Shown: positions 7,424 to 62,539 of the stretch, piece after piece
Layout: each line of letters opens with the position of its first letter
Position numbering within the stretch: position 1 is the stretch's first letter
DNA from: Gammaproteobacteria bacterium
GTDB taxonomy: Bacteria; Pseudomonadota; Gammaproteobacteria; Tenderiales; Tenderiaceae
Assembly: GCA_016200485.1 (NCBI GenBank)
Contig: JACQEP010000008.1
Coordinates: forward strand, 1-62,539
DNA length: 62,539 bases
Reading direction: 5' to 3'
Translations under genes and position numbers: made by a program
Notes under the pieces: generated by a model
The model's database searches: none
Told to the model about the DNA's origin: nothing
Seen by the model: only the letters and a program-made list of their open reading frames with translations

Positions 7424-7696
7424 TTAGGGCCTGTTAACACTAATTAAGCCGCAGCGTTGCTGCCCCAAAAGGCGCCAGGCAAGGCGCGAGGAGAGAAGTT
7501 TGGTTACTCCAAATGAACGACGAGCAACGCGGCATGGCGCCTTTTGGGGCGCAACCCCGAGGGACGTAGGCGCTTTTTCCGCGAGACAAGGCGCACCGAG
7601 TGTAGTGTACTTGATGTACATAAGCGAAGGTGCAACGCCGTATCGCGGAAAAAGCGCCTACGTCGCTGCGGCTTAATTAGTGTTAACAGGCCCTAA
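7424..7696. repeat. Nested palindromic element (MITE-like) between archease and rtcB
   Basis: The ends are a perfect 33-base inverted repeat (7424-7456 and 7664-7696, beginning TTAGGGCCTGTTAACAC). Inside are two further perfect hairpins: arms 7462-7477/7535-7550 (16 bases, GCCCCAAAAGGCGCCA) and 7563-7584/7643-7664 (22 bases, starting GACGTAGGCGC). Each inner hairpin holds a core starting CAAGGCGC, a small central palindrome (TTTGG..CCAAA or GTGTAC..GTACA) and an ending such as GCAACGC. Folded, it would be a three-way cruciform. It codes for nothing convincing. No clear target-site duplication is visible. It probably forms a strong RNA structure between archease and rtcB. I do not recognise a named family. 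Confidence 0.88.
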
Positions 7697-25668: not shown

Positions 25669-25870
25669 ATAAAAATCCAACGCAGAGACGCGGAGGCGCA
25701 GAGATGTTACTAAATAAAAAACCTCTTCCTGCTAGAGATAAGATGAGAAAAAGAAGTAAGGGCCTAAAACATGCTCCTTTTGATTTTTCTCCGCGTCTCT
25801 GCGCCTCGGCAACCGCTCCTGCGTTGCACTACCTCGCACATCCCTGTGCTCGTCCGCGTTGGATTTTTAA
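25669..25870. repeat. Palindromic repeat between thrC and hom
   Basis: Outer arms AAAAATCCAACGC and GCGTTGGATTTTT enclose matching GCAGAGACGCGGAGG-type and CTCCGCGTCTCTGCG-type stretches. The right arm is interrupted by the 48-base module. A related repeat of the CCACAGGGGCACGGAGG type sits between hom and alaC. It codes for nothing visible. Confidence 0.7.
25805..25852 (-). repeat. 48-base inserted module, copy 2
   Basis: On the minus strand it begins CGAGCACAGGGATGTGCG and ends GGAGCGGTTGCCGAG. It corresponds to 22837-22884 with a single-base length difference and a few substitutions. It sits inside the right arm of a palindromic repeat unrelated to the REP unit holding copy 1. Confidence 0.65.
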
Positions 25871-39840: not shown

Positions 39841-40446
39841 TTATTTGGCTTCTTTTTTTTCAGCCGCCATCTTCACTATACGGACGCGATCCTCGCGCTT
39901 CACTGCAACCTGCGCACCTGGGTCCTGATGCTTACTATCCGGCCGACGCCGCAGGGTCAACGCAATCGCTGCAATAATCGCCACCACCAGGATGACAGCA
40001 GCCAGCTCAAAGGAATAGACATAGTCGGTATACAGCACTCGTCCCAGTTCCTTGGTATTACTGTAATCCGCCGCATGACGCACCGGTGCGGCCACTTTGT
40101 CGAGGCCGAAGTTCTTGGCGCCGACCACCATGCTCAGCTCAATCACCATAATCACCGCTACCGCGATACCCACCGGCAGGTAACGAATAAAACCTTCACG
40201 TAGAATAGCGATATTGATATCCAGCATCATCACCACAAACAGGAACAAGACCATGACCGCGCCGACGTAGACCAGCACCAGCGTGATCGCAAGAAACTCG
40301 GCCTCCAGCATCAACCAGATCGCGGCACTGGTGAAAAAAGTCAGCACCAGAAACAGAACGGCATGCACAGGATTGCGCACGGTAATCACCGCCAACGCAG
40401 AAGCGATCAAGATCGCGGCAAAGAAGTAAAAAATTACGGTGTCCAT
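39841..40446 (-). CDS. nuoJ: NADH-quinone oxidoreductase subunit J
   Basis: 201 residues with five membrane segments and a charged C-terminal tail (RREDRVRIVKMAAEKKEAK in reduced form). The conserved loop AEFLAITLVLVYVGAVMVLFLFVVMML carries the pi-bulge helix of the subunit, next to the quinone chamber. Its upstream gap to nuoI is unusually long (about 185 bases) because a palindromic element is inserted there. Confidence 0.95.
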   Translation of the reverse strand: MDTVIFYFFAAILIASALAVITVRNPVHAVLFLVLTFFTSAAIWLMLEAEFLAITLVLVYVGAVMVLFLFVVMMLDINIAILREGFIRYLPVGIAVAVIMVIELSMVVGAKNFGLDKVAAPVRHAADYSNTKELGRVLYTDYVYSFELAAVILVVAIIAAIALTLRRRPDSKHQDPGAQVAVKREDRVRIVKMAAEKKEAK

Positions 40447-40481
40447 GTCCTGTCGTTATTCTCTTTTAAATTAAAACTAAA

Positions 40482-40622
40482 GGACACCTCTATAAATTCG
40501 ATCAAGCCGATGATGGCAAGGCGCAAACGGGCGAAAAAGCGCAGTGTACATGTAGTACATGAGCATTTTGAGCCCGTTTGCAACACCGCCAGCGCGGCTT
40601 CAGCGAATTTATAGAGGTGTCC
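40482..40622. repeat. Nested palindromic element between nuoI and nuoJ
   Basis: A 141-base element with perfect 19-base inverted ends (40482-40500 GGACACCTCTATAAATTCG, 40604-40622). Inside are CAAGCCG/CGGCTTC and a further stem GCAAACGGGC / GCCCGTTTGC. The core has CAAGGCGCA, then AGTGTACATGTAGTACAT, then TGCAACACCG. This core is shared with the inner hairpin of the 7424-7696 element, although the outer ends are unrelated. It lies eight bases after the nuoI stop and 35 before the nuoJ start, inside an operon, so it must be transcribed through. No ORF of note. Confidence 0.85.
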
Positions 40623-40630
40623 CATCGCTG

Positions 40631-41119
40631 TCATCGGTATTGCGAATCCACCGCCCGGTCAGCCGCAATCTGTTTTTCCAGACGATCGCCCACCGCCAGG
40701 AGTTTTTCCTTGGTCATGATCTGCTCACCGCGTCGTTCGAAGTGATACTCGAACTCACGGGTCTCAACAATCGCATCAACCGGACAGGCCTCTTCGCATA
40801 AGCCGCAATAGATACACTTGAACAGATCAATGTCATAAAGCGTGGTGCGGCGGCTGCCGTCCTCACGCTGATCCGACTCAATCGTAATCGCCAGTGCCGG
40901 GCACACCGCTTCACATAGCTTACAGGCGATACAACGTTCTTCACCATTCGGGTAACGCCGCAACGCATGCAAGCCACGGAAACGCGGCGACATTGGCGTC
41001 TTCTCTTCCGGGTATTGCACCGTGATCTTTTTGGCGAAGAAATACTTCCCCGTCAACTTGAGACCAATCAACAATTCCCAGAGTATGAAACTCTTAACAT
41101 AGTGTTGCATTGTTTTCAT
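40631..41119 (-). CDS. nuoI: NADH-quinone oxidoreductase subunit I
   Basis: 162 residues. Two [4Fe-4S] ligand sets, [16 protein letters not shown] and [16 protein letters not shown], hold clusters N6a and N6b that pass electrons towards NuoB. A short N-terminal amphipathic part attaches it to the membrane arm. It lies 18 bases after nuoH. The stop is followed closely by the palindromic element. Confidence 0.96.
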
Positions 41120-54702: not shown

Positions 54703-57700
54703 TCACTGCCAATTGGCCACCAACACCGGCGCCAAGGCGGTCTCAACATCCGGCGACAAGGTCAACTGCCCCGCAGACGGTGCCGAAAACGCGGCCATCG
54801 CTGAGACGAGATTTTCGACGTTGGTGTCCAGCAATGTCTTACCGTCTGCGGTTTTGAGTTGCTCGACGTGGTAGGCACTGCCCAGATACCAGTCTTTGAT
54901 CACCAGGTGGTCTGAAGTGCCGATGATGTTGATATCCAGGTTGTTGCCTGTATGCTGGAACCAGAGTTGATCGGTCGCAATCCCGGCGCCGAACGATGCC
55001 ACATCCGTGTTACCGGCGGTGGTGTCGTTTTCGGTGACGGTATCGACGTCATAGCCTCGACCAAAGAGATAAGTATCATTCCCTGCGTCCCCCACCAGCG
55101 AATCATTCGCAGCTGCGCCATCCAGGCTATCATTACCCGCAAAGCCATACATCAGATCAGCCCCACTGGTGCCTGACAACACATCATTGCCGCTCGTTCC
55201 GGTAACGACATTGCGCGTGGTGCCCACATTGATCAGGAAATCACCCGTCACCTGGGTCCCTGAGGTGTCCGTTGCGATGACACGAATCGTCAGTGTACCC
55301 ATATCCGGAATGGCAGGGGTACCGCTGAAGGTTTGCGTCGCGGAATTGAAACTCATCCAACTCGGTAACGCAGTACCATCCGCCTGGATGGCCGTCAGGG
55401 TCAACGTGTCCCCGGCATCAATGTCGGCAAAGGTACCTGCCGGAAGGGTAAGGCTGAACGGTTGGCCCTCATTCGCCGCTTGATCAACGATAGGCGCAGC
55501 CACGATTGGTGCATCATTGACATTGGCCACGGAGATGATGAAGTTATCGCTCACTGTGGCACCGGCCAGATCGGTAGCCATCACTTTGATGTCGATATTG
55601 CCAACATCACTGTTTACTGGCGTACCCGTAAAGGTTCGAGTTGTTGCATTGAAACTCAACCAGCTTGGCAAGGCACTGCCATCGGCATTTGTAGCGGTGA
55701 ATATCAGACTATCACCAGCGTCCACATCGACGAATGTGTTCACTGGAACAGTGAAGCTGAACGCCTGGTCTTCGGTCGCTGCTTGATCTGCGATCAGTGC
55801 AGCAGCCGTCGGCGCGTCGTTGGTGTTGGCAACAGTGACCACAAAGTTATCACTTACCGAAGCACCTGCCAGATCGGTCGCGGTGACTTTAACACCTACT
55901 ACACCCACATCACCATTGGCTGGCGTGCCGCTAAAAGTCTGCGTCGCCGCATCAAAGGATAACCAGCCTGGCAATGCCGTTCCATCAGCACGAGTTGCGC
56001 TTAGCGTCAGGCTATCTCCCGCATCAGCATCTGTAAACATCCCCGTAGGCACTGCGAAGCTAAATACGGCACCTTCGCTGGCCAATTGATCAGATATTGG
56101 AAGACTGACTTGAGGCGCTGTGTTCGTTGATGGCTGCCCCTGTGCGGGTGCCGTATAAATATCACCCGTCGTAGCATAGTTATATGCATAGTCGCCGCCA
56201 GCCAATCCCACCGTAGAGGTGATATCGAAATTGGCGATTACATCAGCCGTGAACAGCGGAATTGAAGTTCCTTGATTGTAGGCGTCAATTAATTCGTTCT
56301 TTCTCGCATTGATGATGCCGAGCAGGTCAAAAACTTGGCCGCCGTTGATATTTAGAAATTGTAGCTGTTCAACAAATGCATCGTTACTGACGATTCCGGT
56401 ACCATCGTCATAGGTATATTGCCAATTGATATCAACACTATCGCCCGTTGCGCTCCCAATTTGAAGATGCAACATTGACCACGTATTACCATTTCCGTAG
56501 TCTTCAAACTGAAGCGAGGCAGTCACATCTTCTGGATGGATACCCATACCCAATGACAATGTATCAATACCACCAGAATTTCCAGTTAGTGTCGAAAGAT
56601 CCCAAATAAAGTCTCCACCGTCACCTGGGTTAAAGAGATAGACATCATTGCCGTCATCACCCTCTAGATCATCCGCACCTTCTTTACCCACAAAAATGTC
56701 AGTTCCTTGCGAACCAGTGAAATAGTCATTCCCAGCGGTACCTTCGAAAACCCAGGTCGTTGGAACTGGCCCTAAATAATTAAGCAGGTCTGATCGCGTC
56801 AACGTAACATCAGAGAATTGATAATTTTCGATACCAAACCCGAGAAAATCATTGTCCCCGCGCTGGGCCACATAGACAGAGGCATCGGGATTACTTTTTG
56901 AAGTGATTTTGATGCCCAAACGGCCATCACTGTCCGGCGCGACCCAGCTGAGCTTTACATCCGCCAGATTGACGTTAACCTTCAGAGTATCTTCCGCAAG
57001 CACCAAACCATTAGTAAAAATGGCCTGTAATTCAGGGATCAGCGTGGTCAGTGTCGCTTCCGGCCCTTTTAGGGTTTGAATGTTCTGTTCATACGTGCCT
57101 GACATAGCTTCATAAAGCAAGGTCCCAATATCACTGCTCGTAAAAAGCCCATTATCAACGATATGGGTTTCAGTCGCTTCACTCAGGTCAACAACGTATC
57201 GATCCGAGCCGCCAGAACCGTACAAATAGTTCCATCCTGCGCCCCCAGAGAGTACATCATCACCTGCATAGCCAAAGAGGACATCACTACCCTGCCCGCC
57301 GGACAAGAAATCGCCAGTACTCCCGCCAAACAGCCAATCGTTACCCTCTCCCCCCTCAATGCACAACGGTCCGTAAAATGAGGTACTTCCAACCGCTTCC
57401 CAAATCGAACCCGGCTGATAAATGGCTTCTGTGCCCACAACATCATCACCGGCACCGGCATCGATCACGGAAATTCTATCGTTGTAGGACAATACCGCGA
57501 CTTCGCGCATCGCTATATTGTTATAAACACCCTCATTTCCTGTCAGCTCACCAGCAGGAACGTTTTCCGGTCTCACATAACCGGAATCGTAAATTCTGGC
57601 CAAAGAATGGTTAATAGTATTATTCGTGTTTCCGAGCGCCAGGAGTGATCCCATTTTAAAATAGGCTCGCTCTTTACGGAATGTGTATTCGGTTGCGGTA

Positions 57701-60700
57701 GCTGGCAGGATATTATCAGCACCATCTGAGCCCGCCACCTTATTGATCGTGGCATATTCCTCGAATCTCTGAAACACGTCGTCCATCAACTGGATATTCA
57801 CCCCGCGCCCAGGAACACTTTTAAGCAAATAATTCAACGGATCGATGCCATACGGCAATTTTTCGCTACCTGATGTCAGCTCCGGCATAAGGCTATTATC
57901 AGGAAGCCCCTGCACAAGCGTAAGGTCTACCCGGCCTTTTATAGGCGTCAGCTCTCGTGAATAATAATCAAGTGCTGCATAGGCTGATTCGATGTAACGT
58001 TCACGCTCGTCATCGATTAAATTAGTGCTGTTCTGCTGAGGGTCCAGAATCCGGGCCACAGGAATTACCGTGCCGCTCGTATAGGTAAACTGCCAGGCAT
58101 CAGGATTTATGAAATAATTCTCAATTGTCGCTGAGCCAGCGGTATTTTTCCAACTCATGACCAGAGAATCGCCGGAACGGGACGCCGTCATATCACCCAC
58201 TACCATGCCAGGCGATAAACGGACAACGTTGAGCGACCCATCTTGGACATCATCACGCACGATAACATTGCCCGGCACATTACCAACGATATAAACATCG
58301 CTACCGCTACCGCCCAATAGCAGGTCGTCACCACCATTGCCGTTGAGAATGTCGTTATCGGCGCCGCCATCCAGTACGTCGGCCATATCGCCACCGATCA
58401 ATCGATCATTGCCGCCACCGCCGGAAAGATGATTCTGCCCCCCATCGTTACCGCGCAATGTATCGTTGCCGGGACCACCGATCTGTTGCGAGCTGGCCTG
58501 CGTTAAAATGGTTCTATCCCATGCAGTACCATCCGCGAAGCGAACCTCGCCTATCGAACTTTGAGGGTCTACGAACCAACCCCGGACAAAAATCTGATTG
58601 CCGCTGCCATCGATCAGAACAAGGTCATCTACAGATTTTGCGGCAGTGATATCACTCTTATTGATATCATTCCCAAACTGGATAACATCTCCACCATCAT
58701 CAGTATTGATCGAATCTATTCCCCAATTAGCATTAAACAGATAGGTATCATTCCCTATGCCGCCAGAAAGCTCATCGTCTCCCGTGCCGCCGGTGAGTTG
58801 ATCATCACCGTCATCGCCAAAGAGGATATCAGTGCCAGCGCCACCATCGAGCAAGTCATTGCCACTCCCACCGAATAACCCGTCTTTACCTCCGTCGCCA
58901 GAGAGCGAATCCGAGCCGTCACCACCCCATAACGCATCGTCATTTTCGCCGCCAGCCAATGCATCATCACCGGCATCACCATGGAGCACATCATTACCTA
59001 ACCCCCCGCTAAGCGTATCATTGCCGATTCCGCCAGACAGAGTATCGTCGCCTTCATCCCCAGCGAGCACGTCATTACCGGCACCCCCAGAAAGATTATC
59101 TACACCAGCGCCGCCTCTCAAAATATCGTCGCCTAAATCACCGATAAGATTATCTTTCCCATCACCACCTAATAGGGTATCCGCGCCATCACCGCCGTTT
59201 AATAAATCATCGCCAGTACCACCATCGAGGGAATCGTTACCATCACCACCCCATAACTTATCAGCACCTGCGCCTCCCTCTAATGAATCATCGCCTGATT
59301 CACCCAGGAGTCGATCGTCGCCCTCACCACCCAGCAGCACATCGTTACCACCGCCGCCGAACAGAGTATCGTTGCCCAAACCACCATCGAGATGGTCGTT
59401 GCCATGTAATGAAATGTCGATACCGAGAGAATCGCCTTCCAACACGTCATCGCCGGCACCACCGATCAGCGTATCGGAGCCGCCACTGCCAATTAACGTG
59501 TCATTACCCGCGCCGCCATCGAGATAGTCGTTTCCATACAGCGCAGCGGCAAGACCAACAGCATCGCCATCCATCGTGTCATCACCGTCACCTCCCAACA
59601 GCGTATCCGAGCCGCCGTCACCTACTAGAACGTCATTTCCGGCGCCGCCGTCGAGCGTGTCATCACCTACCGCACTGTCTGGCACACTGGCATCATCACC
59701 GTATAGCTGGTCCATGCCGTCGCCGCCCAGCAACGTATCAGCACCACCGCCACCGTATAAGATATCGTTACCCAGACCGCCTTCGAGATGGTCATTGCCG
59801 TACTGTTTGTTGACAACAAGGCTGGGCGCATCGCCTTCCAAAATATCGTTACCGTCACCGCCGATTAACGTATCATTGCCGGAACCACCCAACTGATGTG
59901 ATGCAACTTGCAGAAGGTCATTTGCATTCCACACTGTTCCATCAGAGAAGCGGAATTGCTCAACTCGAGCAGAAGGATTGGTATACCAGTCTTTAATAAT
60001 GATCTGATTACCCTGCCCATCCAGCAGATAGAGATCGTTTCCGGTCTGGAGCGTATAGAAATTAGCGCTACTGACATTGGAATTGATATCGACAATATCG
60101 ACACCACTCTCTTCCTGAATAACATCAACCCCCCAATTGCCAGAGAAGTTATAAGTGTCATTACCGGAACCGCCTTGCAGCCCGTCATTACCTTCGCCGC
60201 CATCAAGCTCATCGTCGCCTCGTCCGCCAAACAAAAGATCACTGCCGGCACCGCCGCTTAAGCGGTCATTTCCCGCGACATCAATGGCGTCCTGATACTG
60301 CCGATAAACTCCTTTAGCAGTAATGGCATAGCTTGAGTCTGCATAATTATCAGTATATGCAAGCGACATGTCTGCTTCGTACTGAGCTTTGTAAATGTCC
60401 CCAAAAAGAATGTCATCACCATCACCACCGTCAAGCTGGTCATCGCCCGCTTCACCATACAAGGTGTCGTTGTCACGGCCGCCATACAGTTGGTCATTCC
60501 CGCCACCACCGAAAATGATATCGTTGCCGTCGTCGCCGCTGAGAATGTCGTCGCCCACCCGGGTTTGATCGACGTCGCGGGTGAGAGGGCGATCGACGAT
60601 GCCGCCGTTGGGATAGAGGTAGCCCAACATAACCGGTGGCATGGTGCCTATGGATGTTATGCCGGTCGACCAGTCGTAGTAATAAATTTGATAGGCATTT

Positions 60701-62539
60701 TCGGTATCACCCCAGAGATAATCGTTACCCGCACCGCCCGAAATAAAATCCGCATCGGCACCTGCATATAACTTGTCATTACCTTCGCCTCCGATCAAGG
60801 TGTCGTTGCCATCGCCCCCGAAGAGGCGATCACTGCCGTCCATCCCAAGCAGGATGTCGTTTCCATCCAGCGAGAAAATAAAATCGTTCCCCAGGCCGCC
60901 GTCGAGCAGATCATTCAGGGTGGATCCACCCAGGTAGTCGTCTCCGGCCTCACCGTAGAAATAAGCGCCTTCCGTTTGGCCAACGGCGGTTTGGCGCGTT
61001 GCCAAGCCTGCTGAGTCATTTCCGTTTCCTAGATATACCGCAATGCCGGGGTTAGCCGCGATGCTGTTAACGCTGACCTTGTCGTTTCCTTCACCAACAT
61101 AGATGGTATTGATGGTTGATGAATAGACGGCGTAGCTGGGGACGCTGGGTTCAGAACCGACGATTCCGCCGCTGCCGCTATATTTCGGGTCTCTGCGTGC
61201 GGCATTGCCGTTGATATACAGGGCGTCGATGGCATTGCCATAGGTGGTGGCGACAGCACCCGTCGTGGGCTCGGTTGATTCGATAAAGTTCAACCCCAAA
61301 CTGCCACTGCTGAACTTATCTACGGCGATGGATGATCCATTCGGACCGCTGATTTGCAGCCAGTTGTCGTTGTTGGGTTTTTGGATGAGGGTGTAGGTGA
61401 AAGCGCCATCCTGACTGCGATAAACATTCTCGGCAATTTTTTCGCCGCCGGTGAGGACGGTGCTGTTGAAGATGATCTTGCCGCTGCCGTCGCTGTCGGC
61501 GATGACATCGAAGCCTTCGCCGCTGTTGTAGACGTAGGTGTCGTTACCGGCACCGCCTTGGAGGATGTCGCTGCCGGCGCCGCCGGTGAGTGTGTCGTCT
61601 CCGGCGCCACCATAGATATGATCGGTATCGGCGCCGCCGTTGAGAACATCATTGCCCACGCCGCCGTTGAGCGTGTCCGCTCCTTCATCGCCGGAAAGGA
61701 TGTCAGCGCCGGTGCCGCCGAGGAGGGTGTCGTTGTCCTGGCCGCCGGAAAGCGTGTCGTCGCCGGCGTTGCCTTCGAGGTAGTCTTTGCCCAATCCGCC
61801 GGAGATGTTGTCATTCCCCGCTCCGCCGTAGAGATGATCCCATTTATCGCCGCCAGTGATCGTGGAATTGCTGGTTATGCCGGTGCCTTGATCAAAAATA
61901 AGCCGTGAGGTCTCCGCCAGTGCTGGCGGAGTAAACGGATACGTGGGGGCTAGATACAATCTGTACAGTTGAGCGCCATTGATATCATCAAAGCTCTGGG
62001 GCGCTCCATTGTAAACGGCCCAGTCGTCGCCACTGTTCTCGTAATGGCGATCATTAACGCCACTCCATATTTTGTTCGCCAGAAACGTGGCTCTATCGTC
62101 AAGATAGGTGTCGGTGAGACCGGTATCGGCAGTGCTGTCGTAGAGATTGAGTTCGCCGTTGACGTTGTAAGTTTGATAATCGATGCCGAGCACGACAAAA
62201 GGATTCAATGTTTGCAGCGCATAGCGGTAGGCCTGGCCTTCGGCGTCGGTTTGTTTGGCTTTGGCGAGGATGGCGTCGCGGGAGAGACCGACGAGGGGGA
62301 TAAGTTGGAGGTTGGGGTGGGCGGTTGTTTCGAGTTCTATGATCGCCTGGAGTTCATAGAAATTTTTATAGAAGTCGTCGCGGTGGATTTCAATGGAGGG
62401 ATAGGTCTTGCCAAAAACCGTTCCAAGATCGGCGAGCGCAGATTCGAGGCTGTTGGCGGGGTTGCTGGAGGTGGCGGTGAGGATGCTGTTTATCGTGCCG
62501 ATGCTGGCCGAGGGGTCGAGTTTGGCGAAGAGGTTGTAG
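54703..62539 (-). CDS. Giant RTX calcium-binding protein with cadherin-like repeats (type I secreted), 5' end beyond window
   Basis: The frame stays open from the window end, giving at least 2,611 residues with the N-terminus missing. The visible start region reads ALQTLNPFVVLGIDYQTYNVNGELNLYD, seen in large RTX proteins. Many GGxGxDxLx nonapeptides follow (main tracts near 61860-61550, 60980-60700, 60540-60400, 60260-60150, 59890-58740, 58450-58270). Between them are haemolysin-related segments such as GNQIIIKDWY and GNQIFVRGWF. Around 56130-55220 are three tandem cadherin/He_PIG-like domains (NTNDAP and SGTP motifs). A last RTX block and a tail (YHVEQLKTADGKTLL) act as the secretion signal. 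It should be exported by a type I system, fold with calcium and act in adhesion or matrix. No secretion genes are nearby. Confidence 0.93.
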   Translation of the reverse strand, partial: YNLFAKLDPSASIGTINSILTATSSNPANSLESALADLGTVFGKTYPSIEIHRDDFYKNFYELQAIIELETTAHPNLQLIPLVGLSRDAILAKAKQTDAEGQAYRYALQTLNPFVVLGIDYQTYNVNGELNLYDSTADTGLTDTYLDDRATFLANKIWSGVNDRHYENSGDDWAVYNGAPQSFDDINGAQLYRLYLAPTYPFTPPALAETSRLIFDQGTGITSNSTITGGDKWDHLYGGAGNDNISGGLGKDYLEGNAGDDTLSGGQDNDTLLGGTGADILSGDEGADTLNGGVGNDVLNGGADTDHIYGGAGDDTLTGGAGSDILQGGAGNDTYVYNSGEGFDVIADSDGSGKIIFNSTVLTGGEKIAENVYRSQDGAFTYTLIQKPNNDNWLQISGPNGSSIAVDKFSSGSLGLNFIESTEPTTGAVATTYGNAIDALYINGNAARRDPKYSGSGGIVGSEPSVPSYAVYSSTINTIYVGEGNDKVSVNSIAANPGIAVYLGNGNDSAGLATRQTAVGQTEGAYFYGEAGDDYLGGSTLNDLLDGGLGNDFIFSLDGNDILLGMDGSDRLFGGDGNDTLIGGEGNDKLYAGADADFISGGAGNDYLWGDTENAYQIYYYDWSTGITSIGTMPPVMLGYLYPNGGIVDRPLTRDVDQTRVGDDILSGDDGNDIIFGGGGNDQLYGGRDNDTLYGEAGDDQLDGGDGDDILFGDIYKAQYEADMSLAYTDNYADSSYAITAKGVYRQYQDAIDVAGNDRLSGGAGSDLLFGGRGDDELDGGEGNDGLQGGSGNDTYNFSGNWGVDVIQEESGVDIVDINSNVSSANFYTLQTGNDLYLLDGQGNQIIIKDWYTNPSARVEQFRFSDGTVWNANDLLQVASHQLGGSGNDTLIGGDGNDILEGDAPSLVVNKQYGNDHLEGGLGNDILYGGGGADTLLGGDGMDQLYGDDASVPDSAVGDDTLDGGAGNDVLVGDGGSDTLLGGDGDDTMDGDAVGLAAALYGNDYLDGGAGNDTLIGSGGSDTLIGGAGDDVLEGDSLGIDISLHGNDHLDGGLGNDTLFGGGGNDVLLGGEGDDRLLGESGDDSLEGGAGADKLWGGDGNDSLDGGTGDDLLNGGDGADTLLGGDGKDNLIGDLGDDILRGGAGVDNLSGGAGNDVLAGDEGDDTLSGGIGNDTLSGGLGNDVLHGDAGDDALAGGENDDALWGGDGSDSLSGDGGKDGLFGGSGNDLLDGGAGTDILFGDDGDDQLTGGTGDDELSGGIGNDTYLFNANWGIDSINTDDGGDVIQFGNDINKSDITAAKSVDDLVLIDGSGNQIFVRGWFVDPQSSIGEVRFADGTAWDRTILTQASSQQIGGPGNDTLRGNDGGQNHLSGGGGNDRLIGGDMADVLDGGADNDILNGNGGDDLLLGGSGSDVYIVGNVPGNVIVRDDVQDGSLNVVRLSPGMVVGDMTASRSGDSLVMSWKNTAGSATIENYFINPDAWQFTYTSGTVIPVARILDPQQNSTNLIDDERERYIESAYAALDYYSRELTPIKGRVDLTLVQGLPDNSLMPELTSGSEKLPYGIDPLNYLLKSVPGRGVNIQLMDDVFQRFEEYATINKVAGSDGADNILPATATEYTFRKERAYFKMGSLLALGNTNNTINHSLARIYDSGYVRPENVPAGELTGNEGVYNNIAMREVAVLSYNDRISVIDAGAGDDVVGTEAIYQPGSIWEAVGSTSFYGPLCIEGGEGNDWLFGGSTGDFLSGGQGSDVLFGYAGDDVLSGGAGWNYLYGSGGSDRYVVDLSEATETHIVDNGLFTSSDIGTLLYEAMSGTYEQNIQTLKGPEATLTTLIPELQAIFTNGLVLAEDTLKVNVNLADVKLSWVAPDSDGRLGIKITSKSNPDASVYVAQRGDNDFLGFGIENYQFSDVTLTRSDLLNYLGPVPTTWVFEGTAGNDYFTGSQGTDIFVGKEGADDLEGDDGNDVYLFNPGDGGDFIWDLSTLTGNSGGIDTLSLGMGIHPEDVTASLQFEDYGNGNTWSMLHLQIGSATGDSVDINWQYTYDDGTGIVSNDAFVEQLQFLNINGGQVFDLLGIINARKNELIDAYNQGTSIPLFTADVIANFDITSTVGLAGGDYAYNYATTGDIYTAPAQGQPSTNTAPQVSLPISDQLASEGAVFSFAVPTGMFTDADAGDSLTLSATRADGTALPGWLSFDAATQTFSGTPANGDVGVVGVKVTATDLAGASVSDNFVVTVANTNDAPTAAALIADQAATEDQAFSFTVPVNTFVDVDAGDSLIFTATNADGSALPSWLSFNATTRTFTGTPVNSDVGNIDIKVMATDLAGATVSDNFIISVANVNDAPIVAAPIVDQAANEGQPFSLTLPAGTFADIDAGDTLTLTAIQADGTALPSWMSFNSATQTFSGTPAIPDMGTLTIRVIATDTSGTQVTGDFLINVGTTRNVVTGTSGNDVLSGTSGADLMYGFAGNDSLDGAAANDSLVGDAGNDTYLFGRGYDVDTVTENDTTAGNTDVASFGAGIATDQLWFQHTGNNLDINIIGTSDHLVIKDWYLGSAYHVEQLKTADGKTLLDTNVENLVSAMAAFSAPSAGQLTLSPDVETALAPVLVANWQ

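Follow-up and report, generated by a model that had tools for sequence, protein, structure and literature searches.

A probable palindromic MITE between nuoI and nuoJ with a folded core that recurs within different terminal stems

Introduction

The customary view of MITEs is that each is a deletion derivative of a single IS and an evolutionary dead end. Those of the IS5 family are short and gene-free, with IS5-like inverted ends, target duplications and many copies, and the element described here and its relatives resemble them in this regard, with duplications visible in many of the relatives; they differ in that only the outermost ~12–18 bp are IS-like, and in that a conserved hairpin is common to different IS5-type ends. 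Amongst the BOX elements of pneumococcus we know of no exchange of terminal repeats. They, too, are small repeats of modular build in which some internal units are optional, although their modules stand in series rather than nested (PMC3049150).

A 2013 study described REPs that lie within longer palindromes (PMC3733652). The GTAG/CGTC REPs of that study are similarly small palindromes in larger palindromic stems, and the CGTC type is found here in one such stem (stem B; L280, L281); the focal core, in contrast, is 75 nt long and tagless, with conserved internal loops and an interchangeable IS-type outer stem. REP elements with RAYT transposases resemble a small module described below (M1), in that both have GTAG followed by a hairpin and no target duplication. 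Unlike them, M1 was not found beside any of the nine Y1 transposase genes of the genome studied here (G000), and the core itself is not REP-like. TIMEs, which are Tn3-derived miniature elements forming mosaics (described in 2014; PMC4133298), are also non-autonomous, with conserved ends, a variable interior and a strong predicted fold. Their ends, however, are 38-bp Tn3 ends of a single type, and what lies between these is a resolvase gene or captured DNA, not a single core common to several end types.

Nested short palindromes are therefore known already, whereas the open-access literature yielded no description of one folded core common to exchangeable IS ends. It likewise gave no account of the focal core, or of a single core passing from one IS5-type end to another; nor were the core and M1 strings found in print there, an absence of little weight, since such strings seldom appear. 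The reading that we favour, with a probability of roughly 80 %, is that the focal locus is a non-autonomous palindromic MITE built of separable layers, namely IS5-type ends and a folded core that is also carried in other ends.

Results and Discussion

The focal palindrome and its insertion between nuoI and nuoJ

The palindrome occupies positions 40482–40622 (141 bp; its + strand being the one that reads GAAAAAGCG) of the window, i.e. the whole 62,539-nt stretch of DNA that was analysed, and these limits are those proposed in the initial annotation. The left outer stem (40482–40500, + strand) belongs to class A, GGACACCTCTATAAATTCG, a putative IS5-type terminal repeat, and the right outer stem (40604–40622, − strand) is its perfect inverse. 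Internal to these are two sub-terminal blocks, ATCAAGCCGATGAT on the left (40501–40514) and CAGCGCGGCTTCAG on the right (40590–40603), both on the + strand and common to stems B, C and D. These enclose the folded core (40515–40589, + strand), which scores 94.3 bits against covariance model R1. Within the core, conserved GA residues at 40533–40534 and 40570–40571 face each other in an internal loop, and a further conserved internal loop at 40541–40543 (all + strand), facing 40561–40562, reads GGA in most copies and GCA in the focal one.

The arms extend for 28 nt at 93 % complementarity, with the outermost 19 bp being perfect. The predicted fold has a free energy of −79.8 kcal/mol (z −11.3), which none of 200 shuffles equalled, and each strand folded alone reaches ~−80 kcal/mol, 11–12 standard deviations below shuffles. 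ORFs overlapping the element are mechanical entries of the ORF list. The element is thus short, non-coding and bounded by 19-bp perfect terminal inverted repeats, and it belongs to a dispersed, multi-copy family, with ten cores detected by the covariance model in the 3.06-Mb genome, all of which is in keeping with a MITE. It does not conform to the definition of a GTAG/CGTC REP (20–40 bp, with a tag at one end; PMC3733652). Comparison with Rfam gave only best matches far below the gathering score for the focal element, and no element was matched in 20 loci.

The neighbouring genes, assigned by Pfam and synteny, are nuoI upstream (40631–41119, − strand) and nuoJ downstream (39841–40446, − strand). 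They are separated by 184 bp here, as opposed to 14–50 bp (92 bp once) in the 28 relatives found to carry both genes. The initial annotation had suggested that relatives with an empty gap be sought, and none of these 28 possesses a palindrome at this position. As removal of the 141-bp element would leave 43 bp, an ordinary nuoI–nuoJ spacing, the element is an insertion between the two genes. There is no recognisable target duplication at the focal copy, the flanks being TAAA and CATC. The region 40400–40700 contains no terminator-like sites (GC-rich stem followed by a T-run), and the element is therefore probably read through as an intercistronic hairpin of the nuo operon; the view in the initial annotation that it must tolerate read-through is a reasonable one.

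A second element in the window

Another element of this kind lies at 7424–7696 (+ strand), and it had been proposed that its inner hairpin matches the focal core whilst the outer ends are unrelated. Both parts of this proposal hold. Global alignment of the focal core with the 7424 inner hairpin scores 56.5, a value reached by none of 5000 random hairpins, for which the mean score was 22.9 (sd 5.6). The covariance model, for which 45 cores were used, amongst them the focal one but not the 7424 element, finds two short cores within the latter, at 7585–7641 (+ strand, 35 bits, E = 3.7e-6) and 7478–7533 (+ strand, 23.3 bits, E = 0.0027), and no further matches in the 62.5-kb window besides the focal core. 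The outer stem is TTAGGGCCTGTTAACACTAATTAAGC, as opposed to GGACACCTCTATAAATTCG at the focal locus. The 7424 cores are shorter than the focal core, without its middle stem and AAAAAGC/GCATTTT helix. They sit side by side in one stem, and that at 7478–7533 had been overlooked in the initial annotation.

Conservation and distribution of the folded core

Across the 45 cores, 95.2 % of pair cells hold standard pairs, compared with 83.1 % in shuffles, and changes on both sides of a pair are seen in 137 cells, compared with 36; neither value is reached by any of 500 shuffles, and controls in which the structure was slid along the alignment gave at most 45 % pairing. In an independent count for the middle stem of 131 elements, pairing stood at 85 %, and it fell to 54 % once the partners were shuffled. 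The internal-loop bases (AA, GC/AA, GA/GA, GGA/GA and a bulged A) are mostly conserved at ≥90 %, whilst adjacent paired columns vary. The opposing G/A loops form only on the strand reading GAAAAAGCG.

The core is not confined to this genome. Relatives of the same class carry it in 19 of the 56 genomes searched, and in an even sample of Pseudomonadota the covariance model matches 105 of 398 genomes, or about a quarter, many of these having 12 or more copies, single-contig genomes included. A pattern scan recovered the core from isolates of Pseudomonas punonensis, Thioalkalivibrio denitrificans, Halomonas eurihalina and Marinospirillum celere, as well as from many MAGs, mainly of Gamma- and Betaproteobacteria with some Desulfobacterota. 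Single matches in Bacteroidota MAGs may be binning errors. Related cores are present in three plasmid records; a viral vehicle was also considered, and viral contigs gave no match.

It could be argued that the conservation and compensation just described are by-products of palindrome maintenance and search bias, and that the core is functionless, although we regard this as somewhat unlikely. Copying from arm to arm could generate complementary changes in any palindrome, and because relatives were found by core queries, which favour central bases, the loop conservation is perhaps inflated. The same copying, however, should also erase the conserved mismatches, yet these persist at the frequencies given above; moreover, conservation extends to loop bases that lie beyond the seed region (AA, GC/AA), and the model finds its matches across a quarter of the sampled genomes. 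A covarying core with conserved internal loops, present in 105 of 398 genomes and absent from Rfam, constitutes a concrete and testable motif.

Terminal stems as probable IS5-type ends

Target duplications track the end class across relatives, both for the focal stem and for others. Stem E elements (CAGGCTGTTGAAA ends) are flanked by YTAR duplications (CTAG, TTAG, CTAA), stem C elements (GAGCCTGTTC ends) by TNA, and stem A elements (GGGCACCTCT ends) by varied 4-bp duplications (TTTA, TTCA, TTGA, TAAA, TGAA, TCAA). Two complete elements encoding an IS5_4 transposase (NF033581) were found in related genomes, one (L312) with GGAACCTCTG ends and TTAA, and the other (L311) with CAGGCTGTTGAAA ends and CTAG/TTAG. 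Their ends match the outer ~10–13 bp of stems B and E, respectively. The outer stem is therefore most plausibly an IS5-type terminal repeat, two of the stem types having counterparts in the ends of complete IS5-family elements. Focal stem A agrees with L312 only in its first ~10 bp, sharing GGA-ACCTCT, and no complete IS bearing precisely the focal end was found.

A MITE needs no transposase in its own genome, and the matching enzyme may have been lost. No DDE_Tnp_1 (PF01609) transposase was detected in G000 at an E-value of 1e-5, and the copies there would therefore be either relics or elements moved by an enzyme since lost. Candidates for a complete IS with the core inside its ends, chosen for one-sided arms (L148, L149, L168, L185 and others), proved to be copies of the core that hold other inserts, in one case a RAYT gene. 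In that instance (L185, reverse strand from 4005), from an Ectothiorhodospiraceae MAG, the RAYT gene has GTAGGAGCGG repeats on both sides and lies just past the core, the right arm of a stem-E element apparently being its site of insertion. RAYTs were also considered as mobilisers of the core, and rejected, as neither the core nor M1 is found at any of the loci of the nine Y1_Tnp genes in G000. These RAYT-like genes (L411–L419) are spread over contigs C16, C6, C12, C10, C20 and C24 of this genome, which gave no DDE_Tnp_1 match, and two of them (L418, L419) have GTAGGTCGGGTTAGCG...GTAACCC hairpins nearby.

The same core within different ends

The proposal that different terminal stems can carry one core is confirmed in G000, across the class and in a closed genome (G242). 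Grouping a genome-wide search by outer stem gave at least four stem types in G000, the stems including GGACACCTCTATAAATTC, TAGGGAACCTCTGATTAATTC, GAGCCTGTTCACGATC, GCAACCTGTTGAAAAAACG and AACCTGTTCAAGAT, and overall the core is known from seven or more classes of outer stem. The two outcomes that had been named as counting against the proposal, i.e. core likeness at chance level and a single outer stem, were thus both absent. Two or three end classes co-occur in seven genomes. In all 75 elements with two classifiable arms, the left and right arms agree in end class, with seven classes represented, and none of these elements is a hybrid with two different arms, as would be expected of a half-exchanged intermediate.

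The clearest case is provided by the closed genome, in which L440 has CAGGCCGTTG ends (stem E, with a CTAG duplication) and L442 has GGGCGCCTCTG ends (stem A). Their inner sequences are identical at 106 of 110 bases (96 %), whilst their terminal 11 bp match at only 6/12 and 2/11 positions, i.e. at chance level. Furthermore, the inside of L440 is closer to that of L442 than to those of the stem-E copies L443 (91 %) and L444 (87 %). Comparisons with L448, for which the wrong strand had been taken, were left out of account.

This pair bears directly on the suggestion that these are ordinary IS5-derived MITEs, all descended from one ancestor, whose ends drifted after different IS5 transposases without exchange between elements. 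Such a history would account for the similarity of stems A and B (GGGCACCTCTA and GGGAACCTCTG), for the sub-terminal CGATCAAG/CTTCAGCG block that stems A–D have in common, and for the higher mean inner identity of copies that share both stem and genome (0.93, compared with 0.80–0.84 otherwise). It is, nevertheless, difficult to reconcile with the near-identical insides and chance-level ends of L440 and L442, or with the recurrence of two inserts (M1 and M2, below) in different stems of one genome, and we consider it improbable. The modular reading, in which a core is combined with exchangeable ends, is supported.

We envisage that the outermost ~12–18 bp on each side act as an IS5-type terminal inverted repeat, cut and joined in trans by an IS5-family transposase, around a conserved hairpin of ~75 nt, the stems of which covary and the G/A internal loops of which are conserved. 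Replication or repair might switch template at a short A-rich junction and so change the end of one arm, after which the hairpin would copy the new end onto the other. Thereafter, only matched pairs of ends would be mobile, by means of the corresponding IS5-type transposase.

The same ends around other insides

The converse arrangement is seen as well, in that several stems surround material other than the core. Stem B forms coreless 47-bp palindromes at L265 and L266, whilst at L280 and L281 it surrounds CGTCATTCC...GGAATGACG repeats of the CGTC type. In G000, stem E surrounds a CCCTCTCCC repeat that in turn surrounds GTAGGGGCGATTCATGAATCGCCCCTAC, giving a triple nesting (L299, G000:C9:100000-101600), whilst in G002 stem A holds another core, in many copies. 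This different palindromic core of ~150 bp, flanked by 4-bp duplications, is represented by L267–L275 (G002 and G011), amongst which a 65-bp version has apparently been made by deletion between short direct repeats.

Inserts are also found inside the core. M1 is a ~48-bp double hairpin, ACGAGCNCATGGATGNGCGAGGTAGGGCAACGCA.GGAGC.GTTGCCG, comprising two small hairpins, and its site in cores is AAAAAGCGG^AGTTTAC, within stems A, B, C and E. At least four repeat families harbour it, for besides the core it is seen in CGCAGAGACGCGGAG repeats, in CCCTCTCCC repeats and in one repeat of the CGTC type; the copy in the window (25805–25860, − strand) lies in a CGCAGAGACGCGGAG-type repeat, and elsewhere in the genome the module is located inside the core. 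No target duplication surrounds M1. In the window copy, as at L367, L374, L377, L380 and L420–L430, the site is G(G/T)^AG, and the module itself contains GTAG ahead of a hairpin. Two more inserts, M2 and M3, lie in the right arm and are likewise common to different stems.

The initial annotation had alternatively suggested that one element inserts into another, and this is true of M1, which is found in the core and in other repeats, but probably not of the core itself. Were the core a mobile hairpin that had entered pre-existing short terminal-repeat palindromes, stem palindromes with no core and stems with other cargo (L299, L280 and L281) would be natural findings, and M1 does behave in this manner in several repeat families. 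Around the core, however, there is neither a duplication nor a constant junction; L265 and L266 look like deletion products, as the right-arm sub-terminal block is present in them; and stems A–D have sequence outside the core in common. The absence of a flanking duplication, together with the common sub-terminal block of stems A–D, indicates exchange of ends rather than clean insertion, leaving nested insertion of the core a doubtful explanation.

Possible role of the core

Taking the locus as a MITE of separable layers, the core would be retained for its working as a folded strand, and likelier as DNA (a cruciform, or single-stranded during replication) than as RNA. Core orientation relative to neighbouring genes is unbiased (28 same sense, 23 antisense, 21 divergent and 13 convergent), and a replication-strand bias, as judged by GC skew, is not significant (p 0.06–0.13); with no bias in gene orientation and no significant strand preference, a role at the DNA level is weakly favoured. 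That transposition has instead spread the core as a regulatory or structured RNA, with a part in attenuation or in the stability or processing of mRNA, seems quite improbable, for whilst the core has strong covariation, conserved internal loops and a very stable fold within the nuo transcript, it displays no gene-orientation bias and no Rfam match, and the nuo mRNA carries its antisense strand, which lacks the G/A loops.

More tentatively, the core may be a widespread and hitherto undescribed folded module that survives throughout Pseudomonadota as a passenger, changing mobility systems by swapping IS5-type ends, with its G/A loops read by a host or mobile-element protein. If so, after loss of one transposase another could move the module. 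The occurrence of one core with several IS5-type ends, at times in a single genome, suggests an ability of non-autonomous elements to outlast their transposases and to change them, and this would account for the persistence of MITEs in genomes without a matching IS. It thus seems that, in the small mobile hairpins of bacteria, ends and insides alike can be exchanged.

Elsewhere in the window, at 54703–62208 (− strand), is an ORF of 2501 aa, the DNA of which is full of short in-frame repeats (families D1–D3), and which resembles RTX-type glycine/aspartate-rich repeat proteins.
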